Shown here: positions 41,661-57,826 of the stretch, piece by piece
How positions within the stretch are numbered: the first letter of the stretch is position 1
Layout: each line of letters opens with the position of its first letter
Assembly (NCBI GenBank): GCA_016935665.1
Contig: JAFGQN010000244.1
Location: 1 to 64,000 of the forward strand
Direction: 5' to 3'
Source of the DNA: Deltaproteobacteria bacterium
GTDB lineage: Bacteria > Myxococcota_A > Polyangia > JAAYKL01
Length of the DNA: 64,000 nt
The notes under the pieces: generated by a model
What the model saw: the letters and a program-made list of their open reading frames with translations, nothing else
Databases searched by the model: none
What the model was told of the DNA's origin: nothing
Made by a program: the position numbers and the translations under genes

Positions 41661-42953
41661 ATGCAAAAAAAAACAGGATTTATAACCGTATCTGGTTTGG
41701 CGATGCTGATGCTGGCAGGGTGCAGCAGCTCAGATGGAGCCCCCCGGGAGAAATTTGAAGTTCTGGAAAGCGTTCTTCCACGCATTACAGCACCGGATGT
41801 GGCAGCTTCGGATGTTGACCAGTGTGTCAGCGGAAACAACGGATTCGCCATGGATTTGTATGGTCAGCTCGCCACGCAGACCGACGGGAATCTGTTTTAT
41901 TCGCCCTACAGTATTTCTGTGGCCCTTTCCATGGTGTACGGAGGCGCCCGGGGAAATACCGCTACTCAAATGAAATCGGCACTGCACTTCGATTTGTCGA
42001 AACCGCTGCTTTTCGAGACCTTCAACGCCCTGGATTTGGCCCTGACAAGCCGGGGAGCCAACGCGCAGGGGAAAGACGGCAAACCGTTTGAACTGCATAT
42101 AGTAAACGATACGTGGGGACAGACCGGTTATGGGTTCCTGGACGACTATCTGAATCTGTTATCACAGTTTTATGGCGCCAACCTCAAAACACTGAATTTT
42201 GATTCAGCGCCAAAAGAGGCCCGCAGTGCAATCAACAGTTACATCGCCAATGAAACCGCAAAGCGGATTACCGAACTGCTGCCTAACGGAAGCATCTCAT
42301 CTCTCACCCGTTTGGTACTAACCAATGCCATCTACTTCAATGCCGCCTGGGCCGTGGAATTTGACACAGCGCAAACCCGGCCCATGCCATTTACATCACT
42401 GGATGGGGGCAACAACGACGTCCCGATGATGCATCAAACCGAGTCCATGGGGTACATGGCGGGCGAGAAGTTTGATGCGGTAGGGTTGAACTACGACGGG
42501 AACGAAATTTCCATGGTGCTGGTACTTCCCGATGAAAATGCTTTTAACACGGTGGAAAGCAGTCTTACTGCAGAGATGATACACTCCATTTTTACGAAGT
42601 TGGTGGAGACAACTGTTCACTTGAGTTTGCCGTCGTTCACATCCAAAACGGACTTTTCGCTGAAAGATACACTGATTGCACTGGGAGTGACAGACGCCTT
42701 CAGTGACAGTGCGGATTTTTCGGGGATCGACGGATCCCGAACGCTGATGATTTATAACGTGTATCACAGTACGTTTGTAGAGGTGGACGAGAGTGGCACA
42801 GAGGCGGCCGCCGCCACCGCCGTTGTGATGAATGACAGGGGAGCAGTTGATGAGGATGCTGTTGAGATGAATTTTAACCGACCATTCATTTATTTCATTC
42901 GAGACAACCAGACCAACACTATTCTTTTTGCCGGCCGCGTTACGAAACTGTAG
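41661..42953 (+). CDS. Serpin family lipoprotein
   Basis: Lipobox 'MLMLAGCSS'; 'NLFYSPYSISVALSMVYGGARGNTATQM', 'LVLTNAIYFNAAWAVEF', reactive-loop hinge 'DESGTEAAAATAVVM', 'FNRPFIYFIRDNQTNTILFAGRV'. Confidence 0.97.
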   Translation: MQKKTGFITVSGLAMLMLAGCSSSDGAPREKFEVLESVLPRITAPDVAASDVDQCVSGNNGFAMDLYGQLATQTDGNLFYSPYSISVALSMVYGGARGNTATQMKSALHFDLSKPLLFETFNALDLALTSRGANAQGKDGKPFELHIVNDTWGQTGYGFLDDYLNLLSQFYGANLKTLNFDSAPKEARSAINSYIANETAKRITELLPNGSISSLTRLVLTNAIYFNAAWAVEFDTAQTRPMPFTSLDGGNNDVPMMHQTESMGYMAGEKFDAVGLNYDGNEISMVLVLPDENAFNTVESSLTAEMIHSIFTKLVETTVHLSLPSFTSKTDFSLKDTLIALGVTDAFSDSADFSGIDGSRTLMIYNVYHSTFVEVDESGTEAAAATAVVMNDRGAVDEDAVEMNFNRPFIYFIRDNQTNTILFAGRVTKL

Positions 42954-44051: not shown

Positions 44052-47033
44052 ATGAACTCCATCGATGAAAGGGTCACTGCCGCCACTCAGGATTTGATGA
44101 TACCAGCAACGGTATTGGAAACGTCTAAAGACACGGAACAGTTTTACCTGGGGAGTCGGTTGCAGACCCTCGGGGTTATCGGGAACGGGGGAATGGGTAC
44201 GGTGCTCAAAGTGTTTCACCGGGAACTCAAGGTGAACCGCGCCGTCAAGCTTATCGATGCGGAGGTGCTGCATCGGTCGCATCAGGTATTTGAGCGGTTC
44301 AGGCAGGAAGCCCTCATCGCCTCGGAGATTTCTCACCCGAATATAATAAAAGTGTATGATCTTGATAGAACGCCGGCCGGGTGTCCGTTTATGCTGATGG
44401 AGCTTTTGGAAGGGATGAATCTGGAATCGCTGATTTCGCAGAATGCGCCCCTTTCATTGTCGGCGGTAATTCGCCTGCTGGCAGGACCGGCGGATGCGCT
44501 GGATGCCGTTCATCGCAAAGGAGTGGTGCATCGGGATTTGAAACCGGCCAATCTGTTTTTGACCCACAGTGGCACAGTGAAGGTTCTTGATTTTGGCATA
44601 TCGGGCTTCATTTTCGGACCAAAGGATGCGCGCATTACCCGGGACGGAGAGGTGGTTGGTACGCCGCTCTATATGGCGCCGGAGCAGTTGACCGGCAATA
44701 GGCTGGATGGCCGGGCAGATGTTTACGCCCTGGGGGTGATTGCGTATGAGTTACTTACGGGAAAAACGATTTTTAAGTACAAAACGATACCCCAACTCAC
44801 CACGGCCATTATGAACGATACACCATTGGCGCCGTCCGTGTTGAATCGGACGCTGGCGGCGCACGTGGACGGCGTGATAGCCAGGGCGCTCGAAAAGGAA
44901 GCGGTCGGTCGATATGATACTGCACTGGATTTTGTTCGCGCGCTGGCGGGCCATGAATACACACATTTAATATCCAGCGTGATTCGTAAAGAGTTGTTGT
45001 GCGCCATTGACTCGTCTGAGTTTCACTGTCTGGAGTTGCAAAGCCATACAGTGAAATCAAGTAATGACACCTGCTTCTCGCAGAATGATGAACAACCAGT
45101 TGATGCACCTGATGCAAATACCGACGCAGAACAATTTGTGCCAAATGTGAGAAAAAAATCGAACTGTTCGAAGGCAAATTCAAAAAAGCGTAAATGGCGG
45201 TTTGTCGTCTGGTGGATTCTGTTGGGTGGACTGGCTGCCGTTCCTGGTATGCGGCTTCTTCTACCGACAACGGCATCCGCGCCTCACGTCACAATGACCA
45301 TCGATTCTGTGGAACTGGTTGGGATTAAAGACGATATGACATGGTGTACGCGAGCCATACGCCAGTTGCTGGGTGCGTATCTTTCACTGGATCCCAATAT
45401 TGAATTGATTGATCACAAAGGCGTCATCAGCAAACAACAGTCCGATGACTTGCATTTGCGTCTCACTGTGCATGCGACTTACGACACCCAATGGCGGTTT
45501 GCCATGAGTGTGCAAAATGACGCCAATGAGACGATTTTTTCCAAATTGGCCAATACTGCGGGGTTCGAAGATGCCATCGATGAACTCACGCTGGATTTAT
45601 ATCAGTTCGTGGGATTCGAGCTTATGGCGCCAGACTCGGAAGCAGGGGGAACGGACCAAAGCGCCTCCGCATCCATTGAAAAACGTCGGCAGAAGGAACT
45701 GACAACCATGGCACTGAAGGCGCTTATCTCGGAGGGATTGTTGCCGCGGGTTGGCAGTGTGACCGCTCTTATGCCGCCTTCTGCACAGCGGAGATTCTTT
45801 GATGCCTTCCATGCATATTTGCAATGCGTCATTGGTGAGTCGGCAAAAGAGTGTATGGAACAGCAACCGTTTCCACCGGTTGCTCATACAGGCAATGAAA
45901 CTGTTGATGCACTGTGGAAATTGTTTTCATCGGCAAACAAAACGACCACATGCGACGCAATTCGCCGGGGACCAGCAGGCGTTCGAGAACTGGCGCCGGT
46001 GTTGCCTGACTACTTTGCGTGCGAGACGTCCATGGACAAAATATGTGGCAATACAGATACGTTCTGGCGCAGATACGGATGTGCAATTGCTTCAGCAAAA
46101 GGGGACAGCGCCAGTACAGCGTTGAATTATATATATTCTGGGTTAAAGATGGATGCGGCCAACAAATTTTATGCGGGTATCGCCGTATTGCCGCAGACTG
46201 GACTGGCCAGTGAAAACGGAAACAGCTGGTTTCAGCGATTGGTCTGGCGAAATGGCGAAAACGAAAAATCGGTTGCCGCGTTGCATTTTTCAATGGAAAT
46301 GGCGAGACGACACGGTGAAATCGCGTTGATCTGGGCCAGACGGTCTTATGGGGCCGCATTGAAGACTGCGTTGGCGCTGGAAACGGCGGGCTGGTTGACT
46401 GAAGGAATGGTGCAGCATTTGCAGTTGTATTTGCAAATGTTATCCGACGGGAAGGGAACACCTGCGACACAACTTGAGCAGTTACGGCACTCGCTTTATC
46501 CAATCATATTATTCAAGGAAGAGTCGCTCGCGAATAAGTGGTTGAAAATCGTTGAGGAAAGTGAAAACGAAAACGAACAACTCACCGAAGCTTTAAGGTT
46601 GATCGCTTATGTTCTCGACAAAACCAGGGGAAGAACGTGTCGTCCATCCGCTTTTAAGACCTTTTCAAATGAAGCGGATTATCTTTGTGGGCGTCTGGAC
46701 CGCATCATTCGAAAATGTCCTGTCACAGTGGAAACGGCGCAGTCCAGCGCGTGGAACACATTTATAAGTGCAGATGCCAACCTTGAAAAAGGAAACGTAA
46801 ATGAAGCGAGAGCGCTTTTTAATAAACTTGAATCAGATGCGATTTTTCGAGTGAATTATCCGTTGATTTCAATTTCTGCATTAAAGCGTCTGGGAGATGT
46901 CGCTGTTGAAATGAAGCGCTTTGACGACGCTGCGACCTGGTATCGCCAGTATCTGTCCGTGTGGGGCGCTCTGGATTTACCCGTACGTGACTACATGGAG
47001 GCATCGCGTTATCTCAGCGGTCAACGAATGTGA
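44052..47033 (+). CDS. Transmembrane Ser/Thr protein kinase (Hanks type) with C-terminal helical sensor-like region
   Basis: 'GVIGNGGMGTVLKVFHRELKVNRAVKLI', 'VVHRDLKPANLFL', 'VLDFGISGF', 'GTPLYMAPEQLTG'; TM 'WWILLGGLAAVPGMRLLL'; about 590 aa C-terminal part. Confidence 0.95.
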   Translation: MNSIDERVTAATQDLMIPATVLETSKDTEQFYLGSRLQTLGVIGNGGMGTVLKVFHRELKVNRAVKLIDAEVLHRSHQVFERFRQEALIASEISHPNIIKVYDLDRTPAGCPFMLMELLEGMNLESLISQNAPLSLSAVIRLLAGPADALDAVHRKGVVHRDLKPANLFLTHSGTVKVLDFGISGFIFGPKDARITRDGEVVGTPLYMAPEQLTGNRLDGRADVYALGVIAYELLTGKTIFKYKTIPQLTTAIMNDTPLAPSVLNRTLAAHVDGVIARALEKEAVGRYDTALDFVRALAGHEYTHLISSVIRKELLCAIDSSEFHCLELQSHTVKSSNDTCFSQNDEQPVDAPDANTDAEQFVPNVRKKSNCSKANSKKRKWRFVVWWILLGGLAAVPGMRLLLPTTASAPHVTMTIDSVELVGIKDDMTWCTRAIRQLLGAYLSLDPNIELIDHKGVISKQQSDDLHLRLTVHATYDTQWRFAMSVQNDANETIFSKLANTAGFEDAIDELTLDLYQFVGFELMAPDSEAGGTDQSASASIEKRRQKELTTMALKALISEGLLPRVGSVTALMPPSAQRRFFDAFHAYLQCVIGESAKECMEQQPFPPVAHTGNETVDALWKLFSSANKTTTCDAIRRGPAGVRELAPVLPDYFACETSMDKICGNTDTFWRRYGCAIASAKGDSASTALNYIYSGLKMDAANKFYAGIAVLPQTGLASENGNSWFQRLVWRNGENEKSVAALHFSMEMARRHGEIALIWARRSYGAALKTALALETAGWLTEGMVQHLQLYLQMLSDGKGTPATQLEQLRHSLYPIILFKEESLANKWLKIVEESENENEQLTEALRLIAYVLDKTRGRTCRPSAFKTFSNEADYLCGRLDRIIRKCPVTVETAQSSAWNTFISADANLEKGNVNEARALFNKLESDAIFRVNYPLISISALKRLGDVAVEMKRFDDAATWYRQYLSVWGALDLPVRDYMEASRYLSGQRM

Positions 47034-47039
47034 CAGAAT

Positions 47040-47090
47040 TGTTCACACGGTTCTCACACAGTTGTCACGCGGTTGGTGCGAGACTGTCGT
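47040..47090 (+). promoter_or_regulatory. Pho-box-like array of five 11-bp-phased half-sites upstream of the response regulator
   Basis: TGTTCAC-acgg-TTCTCAC-acag-TTGTCAC-gcgg-TTGGTGC-gaga-CTGTCGT, then 8 nt to TATAGA (47099-47104), a possible -10. Confidence 0.6.
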
Positions 47091-47137
47091 GTGAAGTTTA
47101 TAGAACTGTGGAACAATCATTTCCAGGGAGTGTGCAT

Positions 47138-47890
47138 ATGACAACTAAAATACTGGTTGTTGATTCGGATGAATCAATTGTGGACAAAATTTCGGCGTTG
47201 TTTAATGGCGCCGGCTATACGTGTACGGGTGCGCATTCAGGTGCTGAATGCGTACGGCGAATTCAGAATACGCGGTTTGATTTGATTATTATGGAGTTGG
47301 AGTTGCCGGACATGCCGGGAACGGAGTTATGCAGAACACTCAAATATAATGGCGCTACAGCCAGTACACCGTTGATGTTTTTATCCCGCATGGGTGCGGA
47401 AATGGATCGTGTTGTCGGACTCTCGTTGGGGGCCACGGATTACGTGGTCAAACCGTTTAGCAGCAGGGAATTGGTGTTGCGCGTGCGCGCTATTCTGCGA
47501 AGGACTGCCCAAAGAAAAACGCAGTCTGTTTTGACCAATGGCGTGATAACACTGGACCCCCGCAGCCACCAGGCCACTTTGGATTCGGAAACGCTGACGT
47601 TGACGCGAATTGAATTCAGATTGCTGGCGTCACTGGTGGGAGCGGGCGGACATGTGCTGAAACGGGAACAGATTATTGAACTGGTATGGGGAGAGAATGC
47701 CCATGTGCTGGATAGAACAGTGGATGCGCATATTCGAACGCTGCGCAAAAAGATGGGCGTTGCCAAAGATGAACTGGAAACGGTTCAGGGGGTTGGTTAT
47801 CGAATCCGTCAACATAGAGATGTCCATTGTGAAAACACCGCTTCGAAGAATTCAGATGTCGGTTACACAACTGTAAATGATATGTTCTGA
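47138..47890 (+). CDS. OmpR/PhoB-family response regulator with non-canonical receiver (Glu at phospho-acceptor position)
   Basis: RBS CAGGGAG; 'MTTKILVVDSDESIV', 'FDLIIMELELPDMPG', 'LSLGATDYVVKPFSSREL', C-terminal 'EFRLLASLVGAGGHVLKREQIIELVWG...DRTVDAHIRTLRKKMG...VQGVGYRI'. Confidence 0.95.
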   Translation: MTTKILVVDSDESIVDKISALFNGAGYTCTGAHSGAECVRRIQNTRFDLIIMELELPDMPGTELCRTLKYNGATASTPLMFLSRMGAEMDRVVGLSLGATDYVVKPFSSRELVLRVRAILRRTAQRKTQSVLTNGVITLDPRSHQATLDSETLTLTRIEFRLLASLVGAGGHVLKREQIIELVWGENAHVLDRTVDAHIRTLRKKMGVAKDELETVQGVGYRIRQHRDVHCENTASKNSDVGYTTVNDMF

Positions 47891-47892
47891 AG

Positions 47893-47932
47893 TTGTCATA
47901 CAAGCTTCATTCAACTGTCAAAGAACTCGCCT
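47893..47932 (+). promoter_or_regulatory. Pho-box-like array of four 11-bp-phased half-sites upstream of the beta-helix lipoprotein
   Basis: TTGTCAT-acaa-GCTTCAT-tcaa-CTGTCAA-agaa-CTCGCCT; an inverted ATGACAG (exact reverse complement of CTGTCAT) follows at 47945-47951. Confidence 0.6.
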
Positions 47933-48001: not shown

Positions 48002-49387
48002 ATGTCAAAATTTACATGGAAATTAGTGGTGCTCTTTTGTCTGATGCTGATGGTCGTTTTGCTGGTTGGCGGATGCGAAGAAGACGACGATAAACCAGGT
48101 GAAAACAGGAAAACAGACAGTGACAAAATTACAGCAACAGACAGTGACACCATAGACACTGCCAGCGATACCGCAACAACAACGCCTATGGCGGAATGTC
48201 ACGGGGAGATGAACACCGCCAAAACAATGTGCATTGTCAGTGGTGTTCTTACCGGTGCAACGCACCATTGGACGAAGGCCTACACGTATGTGTTGCGCGG
48301 CGGCGTTTTTGTGGGTGATGATGTGAATGAGACTGTGTTGACAATTGATCCGGGTGTGACTGTTTTGGGAGAAGTATCCACCAAGGGTATGCTTGTTGTG
48401 ACAAGGGGGTCCAAAATTATGGCCGCCGGAACGGTAACCGAGCCAATTGTATTTACGTCCTCGAATCCTGTTGGTTCGAGAGCCCGTGGCGACTGGGGAG
48501 GCTTAATTATAAATGGACGCGCTACCATTAATGGTTGTGACACGCCTCCTTGTGAAGCCAGTGGCGAAGGGGGAACAGGTTGGTATGGTGGAACCAATGA
48601 TGACGACAACAGTGGTATACTGCAGTATGTACGCGTTGAGTTTGCTGGTCGTCTCATTAGTGAAGACAATGAACTCAATGGCATCGCTTTTCAGGGCGTT
48701 GGCCGTGGTACAGTTGTTGACAATGTGCAGGTACACATGAATGCAGACGATGGAGTTGAATTTTTTGGCGGCACAGTTAGTGTAAAACATGTTTACCTGA
48801 CCGGCATTGGTGATGATTGTCTGGACTGGACCGATGGCTGGAGAGGATACGCACAATACATTCTGGCAGTACAGTCGCCGGATGCGGGCGACCAGGGCAT
48901 TGAAGCGGACAACAACGCTGAAAATAACGCACTTACACCAATTGCAAATCCAATCCTTTCCAATGTGACTCTGTTGGGTTCCGGTGGTGAAAACTCTGAT
49001 ATTGGCATGCTTCTGCGAGAGGGCACCAAAGCGACTATTCACAACACAATCGTAGCCAATTTTGCCGATGGTTGCATCGACATGGACGGTGATACGATTA
49101 CACATGCCGCTAACGGTGAAGTGATAATCAATAACTCCATTGTAAATTGTACGGTGAATTTTATGGAGGGTGGGGATGAAGTTCCTGCCACAGTGGTGTC
49201 AGACACGTGGAATGCAGGCACAGGCAATCAAATTGGAAACGCGCTTGCGGGTATCTATTCGACAGGCATTGCCATCGGTACGGGTGCAGCACCCGCCAAT
49301 GCATTTTTTGACCAGGTGAATTACGTGGGGGCCGTCACGCAGGAGGCGGACTGGACCGCTGGCTGGACCACCACCGCACCAAATTGA
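48002..49387 (+). CDS. Parallel beta-helix-type surface lipoprotein
   Basis: Start MSKFTWKLVV; lipobox 'LLVGGC'; 'YVLRGGVFVGDDVNETVLTIDPGVTVLGE...LVVTRGSKIMAAGTVTEPIVFTS', 'GDWGGLIINGRATI', 'NDDDNSGILQYVRVEFAG', 'DDGVEFFGGTVSVKHV'. Confidence 0.85.
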   Translation: MSKFTWKLVVLFCLMLMVVLLVGGCEEDDDKPGENRKTDSDKITATDSDTIDTASDTATTTPMAECHGEMNTAKTMCIVSGVLTGATHHWTKAYTYVLRGGVFVGDDVNETVLTIDPGVTVLGEVSTKGMLVVTRGSKIMAAGTVTEPIVFTSSNPVGSRARGDWGGLIINGRATINGCDTPPCEASGEGGTGWYGGTNDDDNSGILQYVRVEFAGRLISEDNELNGIAFQGVGRGTVVDNVQVHMNADDGVEFFGGTVSVKHVYLTGIGDDCLDWTDGWRGYAQYILAVQSPDAGDQGIEADNNAENNALTPIANPILSNVTLLGSGGENSDIGMLLREGTKATIHNTIVANFADGCIDMDGDTITHAANGEVIINNSIVNCTVNFMEGGDEVPATVVSDTWNAGTGNQIGNALAGIYSTGIAIGTGAAPANAFFDQVNYVGAVTQEADWTAGWTTTAPN

Positions 49388-49409: not shown

Positions 49410-49439
49410 GAAGAGCGGTGTCTAAGGATGCCGCTCTTC
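49410..49439 (+). terminator. Hairpin between beta-helix gene and DUF3450 gene (terminator or attenuator)
   Basis: GAAGAGCGG-tgtctaaggatg-CCGCTCTTC (9 perfect pairs) followed by ATTTATATGATTTAT. Confidence 0.5.
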
Positions 49440-49480
49440 ATTTATATGATTTATCCTGTAACAAACATGGTGAGTTGGAC

Positions 49481-50287
49481 ATGATGATGAAGAAAACAGC
49501 GATGTCGGTAAAACATGGAATTCTGGCGGGGCTGATAGGGGCAATTGTATTTGTACTGGGGGCTCAAGACGAGGTTTGCGCTTCTTCAACAATGAAGATG
49601 GCGGAACGTCTTGCCACCCTAAGAAAAGAAGTCGACGGTCTGTCGGGAGAACTTGAAGAAAGAAAAGAAGAAGTAAAAGGGCGTATTCGGTCCTATGCCA
49701 CGCAGAAAGCAGAACTGGAAGCAGAAATTCAACGTGCAAAGATGCGTTTGGCGCAGCTTCGTGAATCTCATTCAAAGCGAGTGGAACAATTGAGCGAGGA
49801 GGATACGCAGATTGCGGTCCTGACTCCGGCTGTTTTGGAGTCCATTGGTATCTTGAAAAACAAAGTGGCGTCGGGGATTCCGTTTAAGCGCGATGAGCGA
49901 ATTGCACAGCTGGATCGATTGATTCGGCAGATTGATGACAAGCTGCTTCATCCCGTAAACGCGTTTGCCAGACTTTGGGACCAAACGGAAGATGAATTTC
50001 GACTGGCCAGAGAAAGTGGCATGTACAAGCAGGTCATTTCGCTCGACGGTAAAGAAGTTTTGGCAGATGTGGTGCGCATTGGCATGGTGGCCATGTATGT
50101 GCAAACCAAAGACGGAAAAGTAGGTAAAAGCGTGCACCGCAACGGTGAGTGGCATTTCGAAACGATTCGGAATACCGAGCAGCGCAGACAGGTGTTGGTT
50201 CTGTTCGATTCATTCAAAAAGCAGATACGCACCGGATTGTTTGTTCTTCCAAACGCGGTTGGAACAACGTCAAAAGGGATGAAGTGA
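49481..50287 (+). CDS. DUF3450-like coiled-coil periplasmic protein
   Basis: Start MMMKKTAMSVKHG with signal peptide; coiled coil; 'RIAQLDRLIRQIDD', 'GMYKQVISLDGKEVLADVVRIGMVAMYVQTKDGKVG'; first member of an ExbB/TonB cassette. Confidence 0.85.
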   Translation: MMMKKTAMSVKHGILAGLIGAIVFVLGAQDEVCASSTMKMAERLATLRKEVDGLSGELEERKEEVKGRIRSYATQKAELEAEIQRAKMRLAQLRESHSKRVEQLSEEDTQIAVLTPAVLESIGILKNKVASGIPFKRDERIAQLDRLIRQIDDKLLHPVNAFARLWDQTEDEFRLARESGMYKQVISLDGKEVLADVVRIGMVAMYVQTKDGKVGKSVHRNGEWHFETIRNTEQRRQVLVLFDSFKKQIRTGLFVLPNAVGTTSKGMK

Positions 50288-51750
50288 TGAAGTTGCGAAT
50301 ACAGATATTGTTGGTTTGGCTGGTGATAATGGCCAAAGTTGAAGTCGCGGCTGCGGATGACTTTTTTGATGCGTATCAAAAGGAATTTGCCTTTTTGGAG
50401 GCGGAGCGAAAGGCCTTAAAAAAGCGAATCGACGAGGTGGAAAACGAAACAAACAAAAAAGAAGCCGCTGCCAAAAAAGAATTGAGTGTATTGCAAAGTC
50501 AGCTTTTGGCCATTCACAACAGGGCGGACAGCATCGAGATGGATTTGGATGAAACAGCGCGTGACAACACGGATATGGAAGAACGTCAGGACATGCTCAA
50601 AGAGACGCTGGCCAGGGCTCAGGAAACAATAGAACAATATGGGTTCGATGTTTCAGCGCCTTCTGACAACGTGGATGTCCAGGCCACGCAGATAGTGAAT
50701 CTATTCAAATTGGTGCAGCAGGCGTATGACATGGGGGCAACAACGGCTGTTTCCGAAGGAGATTTCTTTTTAACCAACGGTAAAAAGGTTAAAGGAAAAA
50801 TTCTGACCATCGGTCATATTGCGGCTTACGGCATTTCAGATGCCGGGGGCGGTGTGTTGGCACCGGCGGGCAGTGGTCGCTACAAGGTCTGGGACAAAAC
50901 CACAAAAAAAACGGCGGCGATGATGGTTGGCGGACAGTTTCCCAGTGAAATGCCAATCTTCCTGTACGAATCCATGGAAAAGCCGGTTGAGCACAAAGAC
51001 GAAAAATCATGGAAGCAGATAGTCGACAGCGGCGGCATCATTGCGTGGATCATTGTTGGACTGGGGGCGATCGCTGTTTTGATGATTCTGGCGCGGGTGA
51101 TCATTTTGATTGTGGCGGGAACGCGTACCGAAAAGCTAATCGTTTCCGTGAGCGAACTGGTGCGCGGCGGTCAGATGGAAAAAGCGCTTGCAAAGTGTAA
51201 AAAGGCCAAAGGCGCCGCAGCCCATGTGCTGCGCGTGACCATTGAAAATCTGCACAAAGAGCGGGAAAAAATAGACGACATCGTTTCTGAAGCAATTCTG
51301 AATAAAGCGCCAATGGTGGACCGATTCAATACCTCTATTTTGGTTGCTGCGTCAGTGGCACCGCTTCTGGGGTTGTTGGGAACGGTAACAGGTATGATTT
51401 CCACCTTTGACATCATCACCGAACACGGCACCGGTGATCCCAAAATGTTGTCCGGTGGCATTTCTGAAGCGTTGGTGACAACGGAACTGGGCTTGATTGT
51501 AGCCATTCCAGCGCTGTTGTTTGGGACGTTGCTCAGCGGCAGAGCGAGTGCCATCATGGATGCGATGGAGAGAGCGGCGTTGCAGATAATTAATATTGAC
51601 GATGTGAAAAACAAATCCGTTGAAAACGAAAATGATGCACAAAGCGATGGCAAATCGCCTCGTTCCGACGGAGGGAAACCCGCTTCCGAATCGAAAGATG
51701 TTCCATCATCTGCCGGCATTTCCAGAAAACCCGCTGAGGCAGCCGTATGA
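50287..51750 (+). CDS. MotA/TolQ/ExbB proton channel family protein with N-terminal periplasmic coiled coil (TtpC-like)
   Basis: ATGA-type overlap with the preceding gene; 'VAASVAPLLGLLGTVTGMISTFDIITEHGTGDPKMLSGGISEALVTTELGLIVAIPALL'. Confidence 0.93.
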   Translation: MKLRIQILLVWLVIMAKVEVAAADDFFDAYQKEFAFLEAERKALKKRIDEVENETNKKEAAAKKELSVLQSQLLAIHNRADSIEMDLDETARDNTDMEERQDMLKETLARAQETIEQYGFDVSAPSDNVDVQATQIVNLFKLVQQAYDMGATTAVSEGDFFLTNGKKVKGKILTIGHIAAYGISDAGGGVLAPAGSGRYKVWDKTTKKTAAMMVGGQFPSEMPIFLYESMEKPVEHKDEKSWKQIVDSGGIIAWIIVGLGAIAVLMILARVIILIVAGTRTEKLIVSVSELVRGGQMEKALAKCKKAKGAAAHVLRVTIENLHKEREKIDDIVSEAILNKAPMVDRFNTSILVAASVAPLLGLLGTVTGMISTFDIITEHGTGDPKMLSGGISEALVTTELGLIVAIPALLFGTLLSGRASAIMDAMERAALQIINIDDVKNKSVENENDAQSDGKSPRSDGGKPASESKDVPSSAGISRKPAEAAV

Positions 51751-52382
51751 CACCGTCTTATGTCGAGCAACTGTCCAGCTACCTCAAAAGTGGTGGCTTT
51801 GTCATGGTGCCGCTGGTGCTTCTGGCGGGCGTATTGTGGTTTGGTTTGGGCTTTCGCATGTTCACTTTGCGCAGGGGGTCGTCCCGGACTGTCCGCAAGC
51901 TGATTGAACGCTGGCACAGCGGCCGTCGCCAGCGCGTTAAGGGGATTATTCCAAGAGCGATTGCGATGGCGTTGTCGGAACTGCGTCCTGGCGTGCCCGA
52001 TATTCGCCATCGGCTTACCAGTAAACTGGCGCCATTTGATGTGGAGATGGAACGATACTCTGTGCTTACCAAAGCCATTGTAGCAGTGGCGCCCCTTTTG
52101 GGGCTTTTGGGGACAGTGTCTGGCATGATAGAAACGTTTGATTCTTTGGCCGACATGTCGTTGTTTGCGCAATCTGGAGGAATTGCCGGTGGCATCTCGC
52201 TGGCATTGTTCACAACGCAAATGGGGCTGGCAGTGGCGATACCCGGTTTGCTGATTGGTCGTGTTCTCGATCAGCGCCAGACATCACTGCAAATGGAAAT
52301 TCAAAAGATAAAAGATGTTGTGGCTTCTCTGGATAGCCACGCCACAAAGGCCCCTTGGGACTATCAAGGAAAAGTGGCATGA
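51747..52382 (+). CDS. exbB: Second MotA/TolQ/ExbB proton channel family protein
   Basis: 'IVAVAPLLGLLGTVSGMIETFDSLADMSLFAQSGGIAGGISLALFTTQMGLAVAIPGLL'; 4-bp overlap. Confidence 0.94.
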   Translation: MTPSYVEQLSSYLKSGGFVMVPLVLLAGVLWFGLGFRMFTLRRGSSRTVRKLIERWHSGRRQRVKGIIPRAIAMALSELRPGVPDIRHRLTSKLAPFDVEMERYSVLTKAIVAVAPLLGLLGTVSGMIETFDSLADMSLFAQSGGIAGGISLALFTTQMGLAVAIPGLLIGRVLDQRQTSLQMEIQKIKDVVASLDSHATKAPWDYQGKVA

Positions 52383-52783
52383 GATATTTTAGAAAGAAAA
52401 ATACCAATACGGGCGTGGACATTTCTCCCCTCATCGATATGGTGTTTATTTTGCTCATCTTTTTTATGGTGTCGACGACATTCGTGAAAGATATGAAAAT
52501 TGATATCGAGAGACCAGGGGCCGCCAGCGCGTCACCGGCATCCACCAAATCCATTCGCATTCATCTTGATCGTACTGGCAATCTTTACATTGAAGGGCAA
52601 CCCATTAAGCCGTGGATGCTGCAAAGTCGCGTTAGAGATTTACTGAAAGGCGGCGCATCTGGCCAGGTGCTGGTGATTACCGATCGCCTGGTACCTGCCG
52701 AGAAGCTTGTCGAAGCGGTGGATCAGTGTCGGCTGGCCGGCGCAACAGATGTGGGCGTGGCAACGGAAAAAGAAGCGGGCTAG
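52379..52783 (+). CDS. exbD: ExbD/TolR family biopolymer transport protein
   Basis: 'MRYFRKKNTNTGVDISPLIDMVFILLIFFMVSTTFVKD'; ATGA overlap with upstream gene. Confidence 0.95.
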   Translation: MRYFRKKNTNTGVDISPLIDMVFILLIFFMVSTTFVKDMKIDIERPGAASASPASTKSIRIHLDRTGNLYIEGQPIKPWMLQSRVRDLLKGGASGQVLVITDRLVPAEKLVEAVDQCRLAGATDVGVATEKEAG

Positions 52784-52814
52784 CCCAGGGCAACGAGACA
52801 ACGGATTGGTGAAC

Positions 52815-53471
52815 ATGCATTTATATTCAAAACAGGAGCGTCTTGCGCGTTTTGCCATTGCCTTGCTGGTAATGATTCTGGGAAGCGCCGGTGTGTTGTC
52901 ATTGGTGCTGGCCATGAACAGCCTGACACCTCCCAAAAAGGAAGCCAAAGTCGACTACAAGGAAATGACGGCAGCGCAAAAGAAAAAGCCAAAGCCCAAA
53001 AAGAAGCGACGCGAGCAAAAAAAGCAGCGGCCGAAGCGCACGACCCGAAAAGCGGCGCCGGCCCCTGTGATTTCCACTGCGATTTCGGGACTGAGTTTTG
53101 ATTTACCGCAAATGGAGGGGTTTGGTTTGGGAGAAGCAGTGGACCAACTGATTGGTGAACAGGCTGTTAAAGATATGGTGATGACGCCGGAGTCTGTGGA
53201 TGTTGTTCCCGAGCCTGTGTACGAAGGAACGCTGGAATATCCAGCCCGCGCCAGACGAAACAATCAGGAAGGGTATGTGGTGATTAACATGCTGATTGGT
53301 GCGGACGGTGCCGTTGAAAAAGTCAATGTGTTGGAATCGGTGCCTGTGGGCGTGTTCGATAGTGTCACGTTGAACTGGGCGAAAAATCTGCGGTTCACGC
53401 CGGCCTATTACAACGGCAAACCGGTCAAGACATGGGCGCGTCGCAGAATACCGTTCAAATTGAGTGGGTGA
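52815..53471 (+). CDS. tonB: TonB family energy transducer
   Basis: N-terminal TM anchor, Lys/Pro-rich linker, C-terminal 'YPARARRNNQEGYVVINMLIGADGAVEKVNVLESVPVGVFDSVTLNWAKNLRFTPAYYNGKPV'. Confidence 0.95.
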   Translation: MHLYSKQERLARFAIALLVMILGSAGVLSLVLAMNSLTPPKKEAKVDYKEMTAAQKKKPKPKKKRREQKKQRPKRTTRKAAPAPVISTAISGLSFDLPQMEGFGLGEAVDQLIGEQAVKDMVMTPESVDVVPEPVYEGTLEYPARARRNNQEGYVVINMLIGADGAVEKVNVLESVPVGVFDSVTLNWAKNLRFTPAYYNGKPVKTWARRRIPFKLSG

Positions 53472-53474
53472 TTT

Positions 53475-54653
53475 ATGAAGTTGAAACAACGACAGTTATT
53501 AGTTGGTGCTCTGGTGGGAATGTTCTTATCAATTGGAGCAACGCTGGGGGCAACCCCAAAAAAGGAAACCCGGATTGAAGAAGAGATAAATACGTTGGCA
53601 CTTGTATCTGTGCTTATTTCGGACAAACATTTTGATCGCGCGGTGCACATGCTGGAGCAAATCGATTTGAAAAAATCGGGCGTGGATAAAGCACACTATT
53701 ATTTGCTGTTGGGGCTTGCACATTTGTCGCTTTCCAATGTGGAACCCGCGTATGCAGCGCTTAAGGCATCTGTTAAAAACGGGCAATCCGACCCGATGGT
53801 GTATGTGTTTTTGGCGCAGGCGGCATTTAAGCTGGCAAAATACAAAGAGACCGTTGAATTTGTAGACGCATCCAAAGGCGCAGGCAACGCGATAGCGGCG
53901 ACGCATATGCTTAAAGCCAACGCGTGCTGGAAATTGAACGATTATCATGGCGCATGGAAGGCGTTGCAAAACGGTATTGCGCGATTTCCCGATAACGCCG
54001 AAATGAAACGTTCATCAGTACTTGTGCTGGTGGAAGCGGGGTTGTTCAGGCAGGCGATTGGCGAGGGCCGATCGTTTTTGACGGCCCATGACGTGAAACC
54101 CGAAGACTACACGGTGATTGCTGAAGCCTTCATGAATGGCGGCGCCCCTGAGGAAGCCATTTTGTTTTTGGAGGCGGCCAGGCTCACTTTCCCCAATGCA
54201 CCGGAATTAACAGTGCAATTGGCCCGTGCCTACATGAAGGCCGGCAATGAATTGATCAGTGCACGACTGTTTGAACATGCGGCGATGGAGAATGAAACAT
54301 TTTGTGCAGATGCGGCCGAACTCTATCGGCGCAATGGCCAGCATTACAATGCGCTGCGCATGAACGAGCGTATTGTGGCGCAGCAGCAGAAAATCCGCCA
54401 GCGGATGGGAATACTGCTCGAAATGTCCCGGTTCGAAGAAGCCGCGGGGCTGGCGCCCCGATTGTTTCGTCTGGGGCTTCTGGATGAGGCGGCGGTTCGA
54501 TACGGCCTCGCCTATGCACAATTTAAGAACGGCGAATTGAGTGAGGCGGAACAAACGCTCTCAAACATTTCAGATGAAGTCTATTTTAACAAAGCCATGG
54601 AGCTTCGACTGGCCATTGAACGGTGTCGCGCCGATGGCTGGCAATGCGATTAA
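53475..54653 (+). CDS. TPR-repeat periplasmic/secreted protein
   Basis: Signal peptide; 'AHYYLLLGLAHLSLSNVEPAYAALKASVKNGQSDPMVYVFLAQAAFKLAKYKE' and further TPR-like repeats. Confidence 0.85.
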   Translation: MKLKQRQLLVGALVGMFLSIGATLGATPKKETRIEEEINTLALVSVLISDKHFDRAVHMLEQIDLKKSGVDKAHYYLLLGLAHLSLSNVEPAYAALKASVKNGQSDPMVYVFLAQAAFKLAKYKETVEFVDASKGAGNAIAATHMLKANACWKLNDYHGAWKALQNGIARFPDNAEMKRSSVLVLVEAGLFRQAIGEGRSFLTAHDVKPEDYTVIAEAFMNGGAPEEAILFLEAARLTFPNAPELTVQLARAYMKAGNELISARLFEHAAMENETFCADAAELYRRNGQHYNALRMNERIVAQQQKIRQRMGILLEMSRFEEAAGLAPRLFRLGLLDEAAVRYGLAYAQFKNGELSEAEQTLSNISDEVYFNKAMELRLAIERCRADGWQCD

Positions 54654-57600
54654 ACGAAATCATTATGTTCAATATTTTTCTTAACCCCAATTGGGTAGTT
54701 GTTGTTGTGCTGATTCTGTATTCGACGGTTGCACGTGCGCAGGATATCCCTGGAAAAGTGCATGGTGTTCTATTTGAAGATGCCAAAAAAACGCCCATTC
54801 AAAACGTATCGATATTCAGTAAGGCCCGTCCGGACTCTGTGGTTGAAATTAACGATGGTGTGTTTGAATTGACGTTGCCCCCTGGCAGACATGAGCTGCT
54901 GGTGCATTTGGGAAACAGTGTGGTGGCGCGCCTTGGGGAAGTGGATGTGGTAGCGGGATACTCGGTTGAAGTGGTGGGCAGTATCAACGCCACGGGCGAT
55001 GTGACATCCATCCAGGTGGAAGGCATTTCAAAAATTGAGGTTCCCAAACAGGATGCCGCAGCAATGGAAAATGCGCAAATGTCTGCGTTGGAAGGTCGGG
55101 TTATTCACGCGGAGACCGGGGAAGGTATTGAGGGCGCACGGGTGTTTGTTCGTGGTCAGTCGGGCGAAGCGGTAACCGATGCGTCCGGGCATTTTCACTT
55201 TAATGTTCCGGTGGGCGTGCATGATGTTTCGGTCCTGCATCATCAATACGCTACGGTCACAAAAAAAAATGTGTCCGTGGTTGCCGATGCGCCCACAATT
55301 CTTGAAATAAAGGCCACACCACTCGGGGTGATGCTCCAGGATTATGTGGTGACCGCTCCACGCATCGAAGGCGGCACTGCATCATTGATGGAAGAACGAA
55401 AAGAGTCCACTGCTGTGGAGGACGTGATCGGTGCGGAACAAATGTCGAAAACCGGTGATTCCAATGCTGCATCGGCGTTGAAACGGGTGACGGGAATTAC
55501 TGTGGTGGGCGGCAAATATGTGTATGTGCGCGGCCTTGGGGAACGGTATTCATCCACATTGTTTAACGGCGCCATGTTGCCCAGTCCCGAACCGGAACGG
55601 CGCGTGATTCCGCTGGATATGTTCCCGTCTGGAATGCTCGAAAGTGTTGTGGTTCAAAAAACCTATAGCCCTGAACTGCCCGGAGAGTTTGGCGGCGGAG
55701 TGGTGATGTTGCGCAGCCGCAATTATCCATCGACATTGGTTTTTGATATTTCGGGCAGTGGCGAATTGCTCACCGGGACTACTTTTTCAAAGGGATGGAA
55801 AACCAAATCCGGCCCCACTGATTGGCTCGGTATTGACGGTGGATATCGATCCTTGCCAGGTGAATTTGTTGCTGCCACAAAGGACAAGGCGTTGGCAGTG
55901 GCGGACCTGGTCAATCCGGATGGCGGGTTTACGCCGGAGGAGCTGGAACATTTGGGTGAAATTATTCCCAAAAACTGGCACAACTGGAAAGGAACAGTGC
56001 CCCCCAATTGGGGATTGTCCTTAAGTGTGGGAAACACGTTTAAACTAAAGCGCGTTAAATTGGGGGTTCTTGGTTCAGCCATGTACGACAATGAATGGGA
56101 GAATGTGTCGCCCAAAATGGTAGTGTACAATATGTCGGAGGATTCACTCCGGGCATTCCATGAATACGATTTTGAGACCAACACCAATACCGTTAAGACA
56201 GCAGCGTTCCTTGCGGTGGGCCTTGAGTTTAGCGAACATCACAGTTTGCGCAGCACCACCATGCTCAATCGCATCAGTGACAAAATGACACGCTGGTATC
56301 AGGGACGAAACGACGACGCGAATACCACTATTCGGGTTTTCCGCAGTCGCTGGGTAGAGCGACAGCTGTTTTCGCAGCAGTTATTGGGCGAACACGTGTT
56401 TGAAAGGTTGCATGATCTGGGAGTGACCTATCGCTACACGTTTTCCCGCGCATCCCGTCTCGAACCATTGCGATTGACGGCCCGCCAGGATTACGAAGAC
56501 TCCACCGGGAACTGGCGACTCTCCGACAGGCCCGAAGGCAACAGCATTTTATACAGCGAGTTGTTTGATATCACCCATGATTTGGGAATGGAAGTGAGTT
56601 TGCCATTTGAGTTTAACGCGAGGAACAATCTGAAATTGTTTGCCGGCGGAGCATTGATGATTCGGGACAGAGAGGTGGATACACGCCGGTTTAAGTACGA
56701 CAGCAAACGATCCAACACGTTTCCCGGGTCCGGGGGACCACTCACGTTGAACGATTTTGGCCAATTGTTCGTGGACGAGTATATTGGGCCATTCACGTAT
56801 GAGGGCGAGATGTACAATGGCTTTCAGCTGTTGGAAGCAACGATGAATACCGACAATTACAGCGCCAGTCAGAATCTGTCGGCGGGATATGGTAAAGCGG
56901 AATTGCAGTTGGTGGATACAGTTAAAGTGATGGGCGGGGCACGGGTTGAAAAGTCGGACCAGAATGTAAAAACATTCGAACTGTTTAATCCTGCGGGAGA
57001 AGAGGTGAATGCCGGTTTGGAAACGCTGGATGTATTGCCGGCGGCGACTGTCTCCTGGGAATTTAAAGACGGAATGATTATCCGCGGAGGTTACGGACGC
57101 ACCGTATCTCGACCGGAGTTTCGCGAGATGTCTCCCGCGTTGTTTAACGATGTGACGGGCGGCAATCCGATTGTGGGCAATGAGGATCTGAAAAGAGCCG
57201 TCATTGACAACTTTGATGTGCGCTGGGACTGGTTTTTCGCTCCTGGCGAGATGATTTCCCTTGGCGGTTTTTTCAAACAGTTCGATCAGCCCATCGAAGT
57301 GACCATTCGTTCTGCCGCGCAGTTGCAGGTATCGTGGCAGAACGCGCGTTCGGCACGTAATTTTGGACTGGAATTTGATTTAAAAAAGAACTTCGACTGG
57401 ATTTCCGAATCGCTGAAAGATATCTATTTTGCTGCCAATGCGTCGGTGATTCGGTCTCAGGTAAAATTGGATCCCGATGGTATTCAAACCAACAACAACC
57501 GACCATTGCAGGGGCAGTCACCGTTTGTTCTCAACTGTCAGCTGGGCTACGACAATGTGGATAATGGCCGTTCCCTGATAATGCTTTACAATGTGTTTGG

Positions 57601-57826
57601 AAAGCGAATATCGGAGGTGGGGGCGCTGGGATTGCCGGATACGGTTGAGTTGCCGTTTCATTCGTTGAGCTTTGTGGCCAAAATGAAAGTGAAAGAGAAG
57701 TTTAAATTTAGTTTCAAGATAGGCAATATATTAAATCAGACCGTGGCGTTTACCCAGGGGGGCAAAATCCGCTGGAAATATAAAAAGGGCATCAGCTTCT
57801 CGGTAGGTGCGGGATTTTCCTATTAA
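54644..57826 (+). CDS. TonB-dependent receptor with two N-terminal carboxypeptidase-regulatory-like domains
   Basis: 'LEGRVIHAETGEGIEGARVFVRGQSGEAVTDASGHFHFNVPVG', TonB box-like 'DYVVTAPRI', plug 'ALKRVTGITVVGGKYVYVRGLGERYSSTLFNGAMLPSPEPERRVIPLDMFPSGMLESVVVQKTYSPELPGEFGGGVV'; C-terminal aromatic residue. Confidence 0.95.
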   Translation: MRLNEIIMFNIFLNPNWVVVVVLILYSTVARAQDIPGKVHGVLFEDAKKTPIQNVSIFSKARPDSVVEINDGVFELTLPPGRHELLVHLGNSVVARLGEVDVVAGYSVEVVGSINATGDVTSIQVEGISKIEVPKQDAAAMENAQMSALEGRVIHAETGEGIEGARVFVRGQSGEAVTDASGHFHFNVPVGVHDVSVLHHQYATVTKKNVSVVADAPTILEIKATPLGVMLQDYVVTAPRIEGGTASLMEERKESTAVEDVIGAEQMSKTGDSNAASALKRVTGITVVGGKYVYVRGLGERYSSTLFNGAMLPSPEPERRVIPLDMFPSGMLESVVVQKTYSPELPGEFGGGVVMLRSRNYPSTLVFDISGSGELLTGTTFSKGWKTKSGPTDWLGIDGGYRSLPGEFVAATKDKALAVADLVNPDGGFTPEELEHLGEIIPKNWHNWKGTVPPNWGLSLSVGNTFKLKRVKLGVLGSAMYDNEWENVSPKMVVYNMSEDSLRAFHEYDFETNTNTVKTAAFLAVGLEFSEHHSLRSTTMLNRISDKMTRWYQGRNDDANTTIRVFRSRWVERQLFSQQLLGEHVFERLHDLGVTYRYTFSRASRLEPLRLTARQDYEDSTGNWRLSDRPEGNSILYSELFDITHDLGMEVSLPFEFNARNNLKLFAGGALMIRDREVDTRRFKYDSKRSNTFPGSGGPLTLNDFGQLFVDEYIGPFTYEGEMYNGFQLLEATMNTDNYSASQNLSAGYGKAELQLVDTVKVMGGARVEKSDQNVKTFELFNPAGEEVNAGLETLDVLPAATVSWEFKDGMIIRGGYGRTVSRPEFREMSPALFNDVTGGNPIVGNEDLKRAVIDNFDVRWDWFFAPGEMISLGGFFKQFDQPIEVTIRSAAQLQVSWQNARSARNFGLEFDLKKNFDWISESLKDIYFAANASVIRSQVKLDPDGIQTNNNRPLQGQSPFVLNCQLGYDNVDNGRSLIMLYNVFGKRISEVGALGLPDTVELPFHSLSFVAKMKVKEKFKFSFKIGNILNQTVAFTQGGKIRWKYKKGISFSVGAGFSY

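Follow-up and report, generated by a model that had tools for sequence, protein, structure and literature searches.

We propose that a response regulator of the OmpR/PhoB type encoded in the window (the whole 64,000-nucleotide stretch of DNA analyzed here) is a PhoB-derived, aspartate-less (pseudo-receiver) protein, which probably controls its own gene and a neighboring TonB locus without being phosphorylated on aspartate. With a glutamate as the acceptor and one acid missing from the metal-binding pocket, the usual Asp phosphorylation switch would not be available to it. Instead, the protein probably dimerizes via its retained α4-β5-α5 face and probably binds arrays of 11-bp direct repeats, one preceding its own gene and the other preceding the uptake locus of TonB2 type downstream. 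Control would then most likely be exerted through the amount of protein, either by autoregulation or by other regulators acting at its promoter. The basis for this reading consists of individual residues, their conservation, phylogeny, gene order, and the repeat arrays, from which we infer DNA binding, dimerization, constitutive activity, and regulation of the TonB locus. Aspartate-less regulators are a known class, of which this protein is one more example. The features are collected in Table 1.

Table 1. Features of the window around the aspartate-less regulator.
Feature	Position	Strand	Basis or context
Protein kinase of the Ser/Thr type with a single transmembrane stretch and a sensor/TPR-like C-terminal part	44052..47033	+	PF00069 154 bits, TPR_12 weak
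Three 11-bp direct repeats TTCACACGGTT CTCACACAGTT GTCACGCGGTT, candidate autoregulatory operator	47042..47074	+	104-bp gap before regulator
OmpR/PhoB-type response regulator, aspartate-less receiver	47138..47890	+	PF00072 and PF00486, PhoB alignment
Codon 10 (TCG, Ser), where PhoB has Asp10	47165..47167	+	alignment with PhoB
Codon 53 (GAG, Glu), phospho-acceptor site	47294..47296	+	alignment with PhoB
Winged-helix DNA-binding domain, residues 151-223	47588..47806	+	PF00486
Three 11-bp-spaced units GTCATACAAGC TTCATTCAACT GTCA, candidate operator of downstream locus	47895..47920	+	regulator-lipoprotein gap
Beta-helix-like lipoprotein; conserved MSK start, ORF open from 47945	48002..49387	+	homologs
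DUF3450 (TtpB-like)	49418..50287	+	PF11932
TtpC-like N-extended ExbB	50149..51750	+	PF01618
ExbB	51747..52382	+	PF01618
ExbD	52355..52783	+	PF02472
TonB	52707..53471	+	PF03544
TPR protein (TtpD-like by position)	53475..54653	+	PF14559
TonB-dependent outer-membrane receptor	54623..57826	+	PF00593, PF07715

The regulator comprises 250 residues and starts at an ATG that is preceded by GGGAG, lies in an enclosing frame of 47030-47890, and is the start residue in all three same-genus orthologs (the host genome, G000, and its relatives G001 and G002). Its receiver domain is recognized with 79.1 bits (PF00072, cut-off 30.2) and its C-terminal winged helix with 76.9 bits, well over the PF00486 cut-off, which places it in the OmpR/PhoB subfamily; since the recognized receiver has no Asp at the phosphorylation site, it belongs with the aspartate-less receivers. 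Nucleotides 47276-47311 translate to FDLIIMELELPD, the phospho-acceptor stretch. Our alignment reference was E. coli PhoB, with the phospho-Asp being D53 when counted from the Met1 of the sequence used. The preliminary description of this DNA had the stretch, the codon, and the coordinates of Glu53 exactly right, and the site it equated with "PhoB Asp54" does align with E53, only the numbering of the PhoB residue being different. The alignment likewise bears out its statements that the acidic pair reads VVDSDES (residues 7-13), with Ser10 opposite PhoB D10 (D9 is kept), and that the conserved lysine (Lys105) and the winged helix remain. Also retained are Tyr102, R91, D101, E111, and R115, with a Ser at the position of T83 (the Thr/Ser switch residue); R91 is replaced by Lys in G001 and G010.

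Glutamate at this site is unusual in the host genome (8.16 Mb in 249 contigs, with at least 150 receiver domains), because only 2 of 57 receivers have it in a sample of distinct high-scoring ones, the other 55 having Asp. A second receiver combining VDSD with Glu at the phospho site is found in an 842-aa frame (G000:C76:42562-42936, L036) and apparently acquired this pair independently. A scan of genome contigs for relatives gave only three weak, unrelated receivers.

The closest relatives are the same-genus genes of G002 (67% identity) and G001 (64%). It had been pointed out in the preliminary description that Asp in orthologs would suggest a sequencing error or a strain-specific mutation, but both of these orthologs have Glu. 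Across the three same-genus genes, codon 53 reads GAG/GAA/GAA and codon 10 TCG/AGT/CCG, so that residue 10 is Ser (AGT) in one of the two relatives and Pro (CCG) in the other. Because the same residue is thus written with different codons in independent assemblies, an error or strain mutation was ruled out, its probability being negligible. Glu also occurs in homologs from three further genera of the family (G010, G011, and G012; 39-41% identity), giving a total of six genomes in four genera, with Ser at residue 10 in G010 and Pro in G011 and G012. The homolog of G009, a family member from another genus, has Gly at the phospho site and Arg at residue 10; each of the seven family members thus has either Glu or Gly at the site. 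Among more distant lineages, G203 has Gly, accompanied by replacement of Lys105 by Arg, and G053 has Ala, whereas the acidic pair is present in every Asp-type homolog examined. A profile built from the first five Glu-type members gave 371-441 bits for members and at most 267 bits for everything else in 318 genomes of the class, and a phylum-wide search of 379 genomes returned no additional Glu-type relative above the Asp-type scores.

In a maximum-likelihood tree of 50 rows, a 99/93 split parts the seven family Asp-less regulators from the Asp-type rows. Since G203 is nested among the Asp-type rows and G053 branches at their base, the tree suggests that the phospho-acceptor may have been lost two or three separate times, a count that is tentative because several of the branches involved are long. 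These long branches, the loss of Asp and pocket residues, and the more eroded receivers of G009 and G053 might also be expected of a PhoB duplicate that is losing its function once the locus has come under other control. We regard such decay as very unlikely, given that the frames are full-length with a conserved tail, that the repeat arrays are conserved in three species, and that dN is far below dS in both domains of the same-genus orthologs. With dN at ~0.3 and dS saturated or nearly so, the gene is therefore under purifying selection, and the DNA-binding domain is the better conserved half.

The recurrence of both Glu and the lost pocket acid across four genera lends good support to the earlier suggestion that activity independent of phosphorylation is plausible. 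The mechanism offered with that suggestion, in which Glu acts as a phosphomimetic, is not supported. In its full form, Glu53 would engage Lys105 and the Ser at the T83 position, lock the active state, and keep the operon constitutively on. Such a role would fit the presence of Glu in six genomes and four genera, the retention of that Ser together with Tyr102 and Lys105, and the facts that Glu is the commonest substitution among aspartate-less regulators (26%) and a mimic in some regulators (PMC4395418, PMC12632262). However, the G009 regulator of this same locus carries Gly here, G203 and G053 have Gly and Ala, and the pocket acid is lost as well. Furthermore, the Glu-type regulator ChxR tolerates both E-to-D and E-to-A changes, and D-to-E alone is often insufficient in PhoB and CheY (PMC4395418). 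A phosphomimetic is thus not required, because Gly and Ala versions exist and D-to-E alone failed in published cases, and we consider this mechanism rather improbable.

ChxR from Chlamydia trachomatis, an atypical member of the OmpR/PhoB subfamily, resembles the window regulator in having Glu at the phospho site and a winged helix. It does not need phosphorylation, forms stable dimers, recognizes several sites in its own promoter, and has direct-repeat DNA as its target (PMC3960148, PMC4395418), and it still binds DNA when its Glu is replaced (PMC4395418). Although ChxR belongs to another lineage, has other targets, and lacks part of the receiver secondary structure near the pocket, it is by analogy our working model for how the window regulator may function. 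The wider pseudo-receiver class likewise has a recognizable receiver without Asp and a replaced pocket acid, with Glu as the most frequent substitute. What sets the window regulator apart within this class is its membership in a branch that derives from PhoB, is confined to the family, and is linked to a single TonB locus, and our literature search returned no description of such a branch.

Of the curated models, the PhoB model is one of those that score best with these regulators. The PhoB equivalog cut-off (TIGR02154, 296.2) is not reached by the window regulator (191.7), and the Asp-type PhoB candidate of the host genome also falls below it (237). The differences from PhoB include the loss of both the phosphorylatable Asp and Asp10 (E53 and S10) and, in seven of seven family Asp-less regulators, the replacement of Arg201. 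At this position in the recognition helix, the family members have Thr, Leu, or Gly and the aligned Asp-type relatives have Arg, and a shift of DNA specificity is possible. In G012, the Glu-type copy comes after a PhoB-PhoR-like pair, the order there being an Asp PhoB-like regulator, a PhoR-like histidine kinase, the Glu-type regulator, a Ser/Thr kinase, the lipoprotein, and the TonB genes.

Downstream of the regulator, the window has the DUF3450, N-extended ExbB, ExbB, ExbD, TonB, and TPR genes in the order that characterizes a TonB2-type locus, and this order is kept in relatives. The transport genes correspond in type and order to those of the Vibrio TonB2 operon (TtpB2-TtpC2-ExbB2-ExbD2-TonB2-TtpD2), in which TtpB2 is the DUF3450 protein; the available excerpt of that account describes a putative Fur site and no adjoining response regulator (PMC6957404). 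To judge from the same excerpt, the window differs from the Vibrio operon in that a lipoprotein and the regulator precede TtpB. Homologs of the lipoprotein occur in 186 of the 318 class genomes; it has no Pfam match, and the label "beta-helix-like" is a reading of the sequence by eye with no model behind it. G000, G001, G002, G010, and G009 share the gene arrangement regulator-lipoprotein-DUF3450-ExbB. In G011, the contig of the regulator ends right after it and a separate contig starts inside the lipoprotein gene, and synteny is therefore likely rather than established. Counting G011, 9 of the 10 loci with a neighboring regulator have one without Asp (G266 retains Asp), although the link to the locus is weaker for G203 and G266 because their regulators are divergently oriented. 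Most Asp-less regulators adjoin this one lipoprotein/TonB locus.

Tandem direct repeats of ~11 bp are the operator layout of PhoB/OmpR-type proteins. The pattern of the array upstream of the regulator has 2 matches where 0.02 would be expected, and its three units are also present in G001 and, more weakly, in G002. The array in the regulator-lipoprotein gap is the sole match to its pattern within the window and has the same place in G001 and G002. Shuffling gave p ~0.001 for each triple array, values that are not independent of our choice because the pattern was seen before the test. A scan of repeat periods from 8 to 14 bp peaked at 11 (14 gaps, seven genomes). Two points weigh against the main reading: beyond the genus, in G010, G009, and G012, no clear arrays can be made out, and the host genome has exact matches at other places too. 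In the triple-repeat scan, G000 gave 13 matches and the reversed pattern 5; the corresponding numbers were 14 and 3 in G001 and 13 and 4 in G002.

Other arrays were noted in passing. One with four units is conserved in three species (G000:C118:7817-7853, G001:C331:24664-24700, and G002:C195:11966-12002), where it is flanked by a DnaJ-like gene on one side and, on the other, by a gene encoding a product with KKILLSGVFGPFGVDD. A triple array is located 24 bp before a gene for a Na/Pi cotransporter with a PhoU domain (G000:C21:27498-27523, L223); because this array is not among the scan matches of G001 and G002, a phosphate role for the regulator is only hinted at.

Immediately upstream of the regulator is a kinase which, as the preliminary description stated, is of the Ser/Thr type, and the same description's remark that no histidine kinase is nearby agrees with the finding of no HATPase_c domain on the contig of the window (C82) among the matches listed (at least 150 in the genome). 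A full-length serpin gene (41661-42953; PF00079, 367 bits) lies further upstream. That the adjacent kinase phosphorylates the regulator on Ser/Thr in place of the Asp switch is a proposal for which co-occurrence speaks, but conserved adjacency does not. Among 59 relatives, the C-terminal part of the kinase was detected in 6, each a family member with the lipoprotein/TonB locus; in the 14 family genomes, the six kinases all fall within the eight locus carriers (Fisher p ~0.009, calculated by hand and ignoring relatedness). The kinase adjoins the regulator in G000, G002, and G012. On the other hand, it was not found in G001 (assembly 92% complete), although that genome has an intact regulator and locus, and the kinases of G010 and G004 lie on a different contig with no regulator as a neighbor. 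The G009 kinase gene is apparently split over two contig ends and is separated from the regulator by other genes, including two that are also found beside the G001 regulator. No Ser/Thr conserved for phosphorylation was identified. The kinase is therefore a candidate, unproven partner, and we think it unlikely that it took over the switch.

Returning to a regulator independent of Asp phosphorylation, we consider it most likely that the cell sets its amount and not its phosphorylation state, because Glu is kept in relatives and predicted sites lie before the uptake operon. SsoR from Shewanella oneidensis, an orphan regulator that governs siderophore and TonB-dependent uptake genes independently of phosphorylation, is controlled through its amount (PMC12442407). 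SsoR differs from the window regulator in that its phosphorylation site is kept and it is structurally locked on (PMC12442407), but by analogy it shows that amount control would be possible for a phosphorylation-independent regulator of TonB-dependent uptake. We give little credence to a broader scenario, in which a PhoB-derived regulator tied to one TonB2-type locus lost its acceptor at least two or three times independently within the class (replaced by Glu in the family, by Gly in G203, and by Ala in G053) and control in the family passed to the co-inherited Ser/Thr kinase.

It is an open question by what means pseudo-receivers are turned on and off in organisms other than plants (PMC12632262). 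The Glu, Gly, Ala, and Asp versions constitute a small natural series in which a single type of regulator occurs at the same uptake locus, and this series and the predicted operator sites make a direct test of the importance of Glu possible. In G053, the TonB genes are separated from the TonB-dependent receptor by two degenerate OmpR-type regulators arranged back to back, one of them without much of its receiver (L155:4260-5787).
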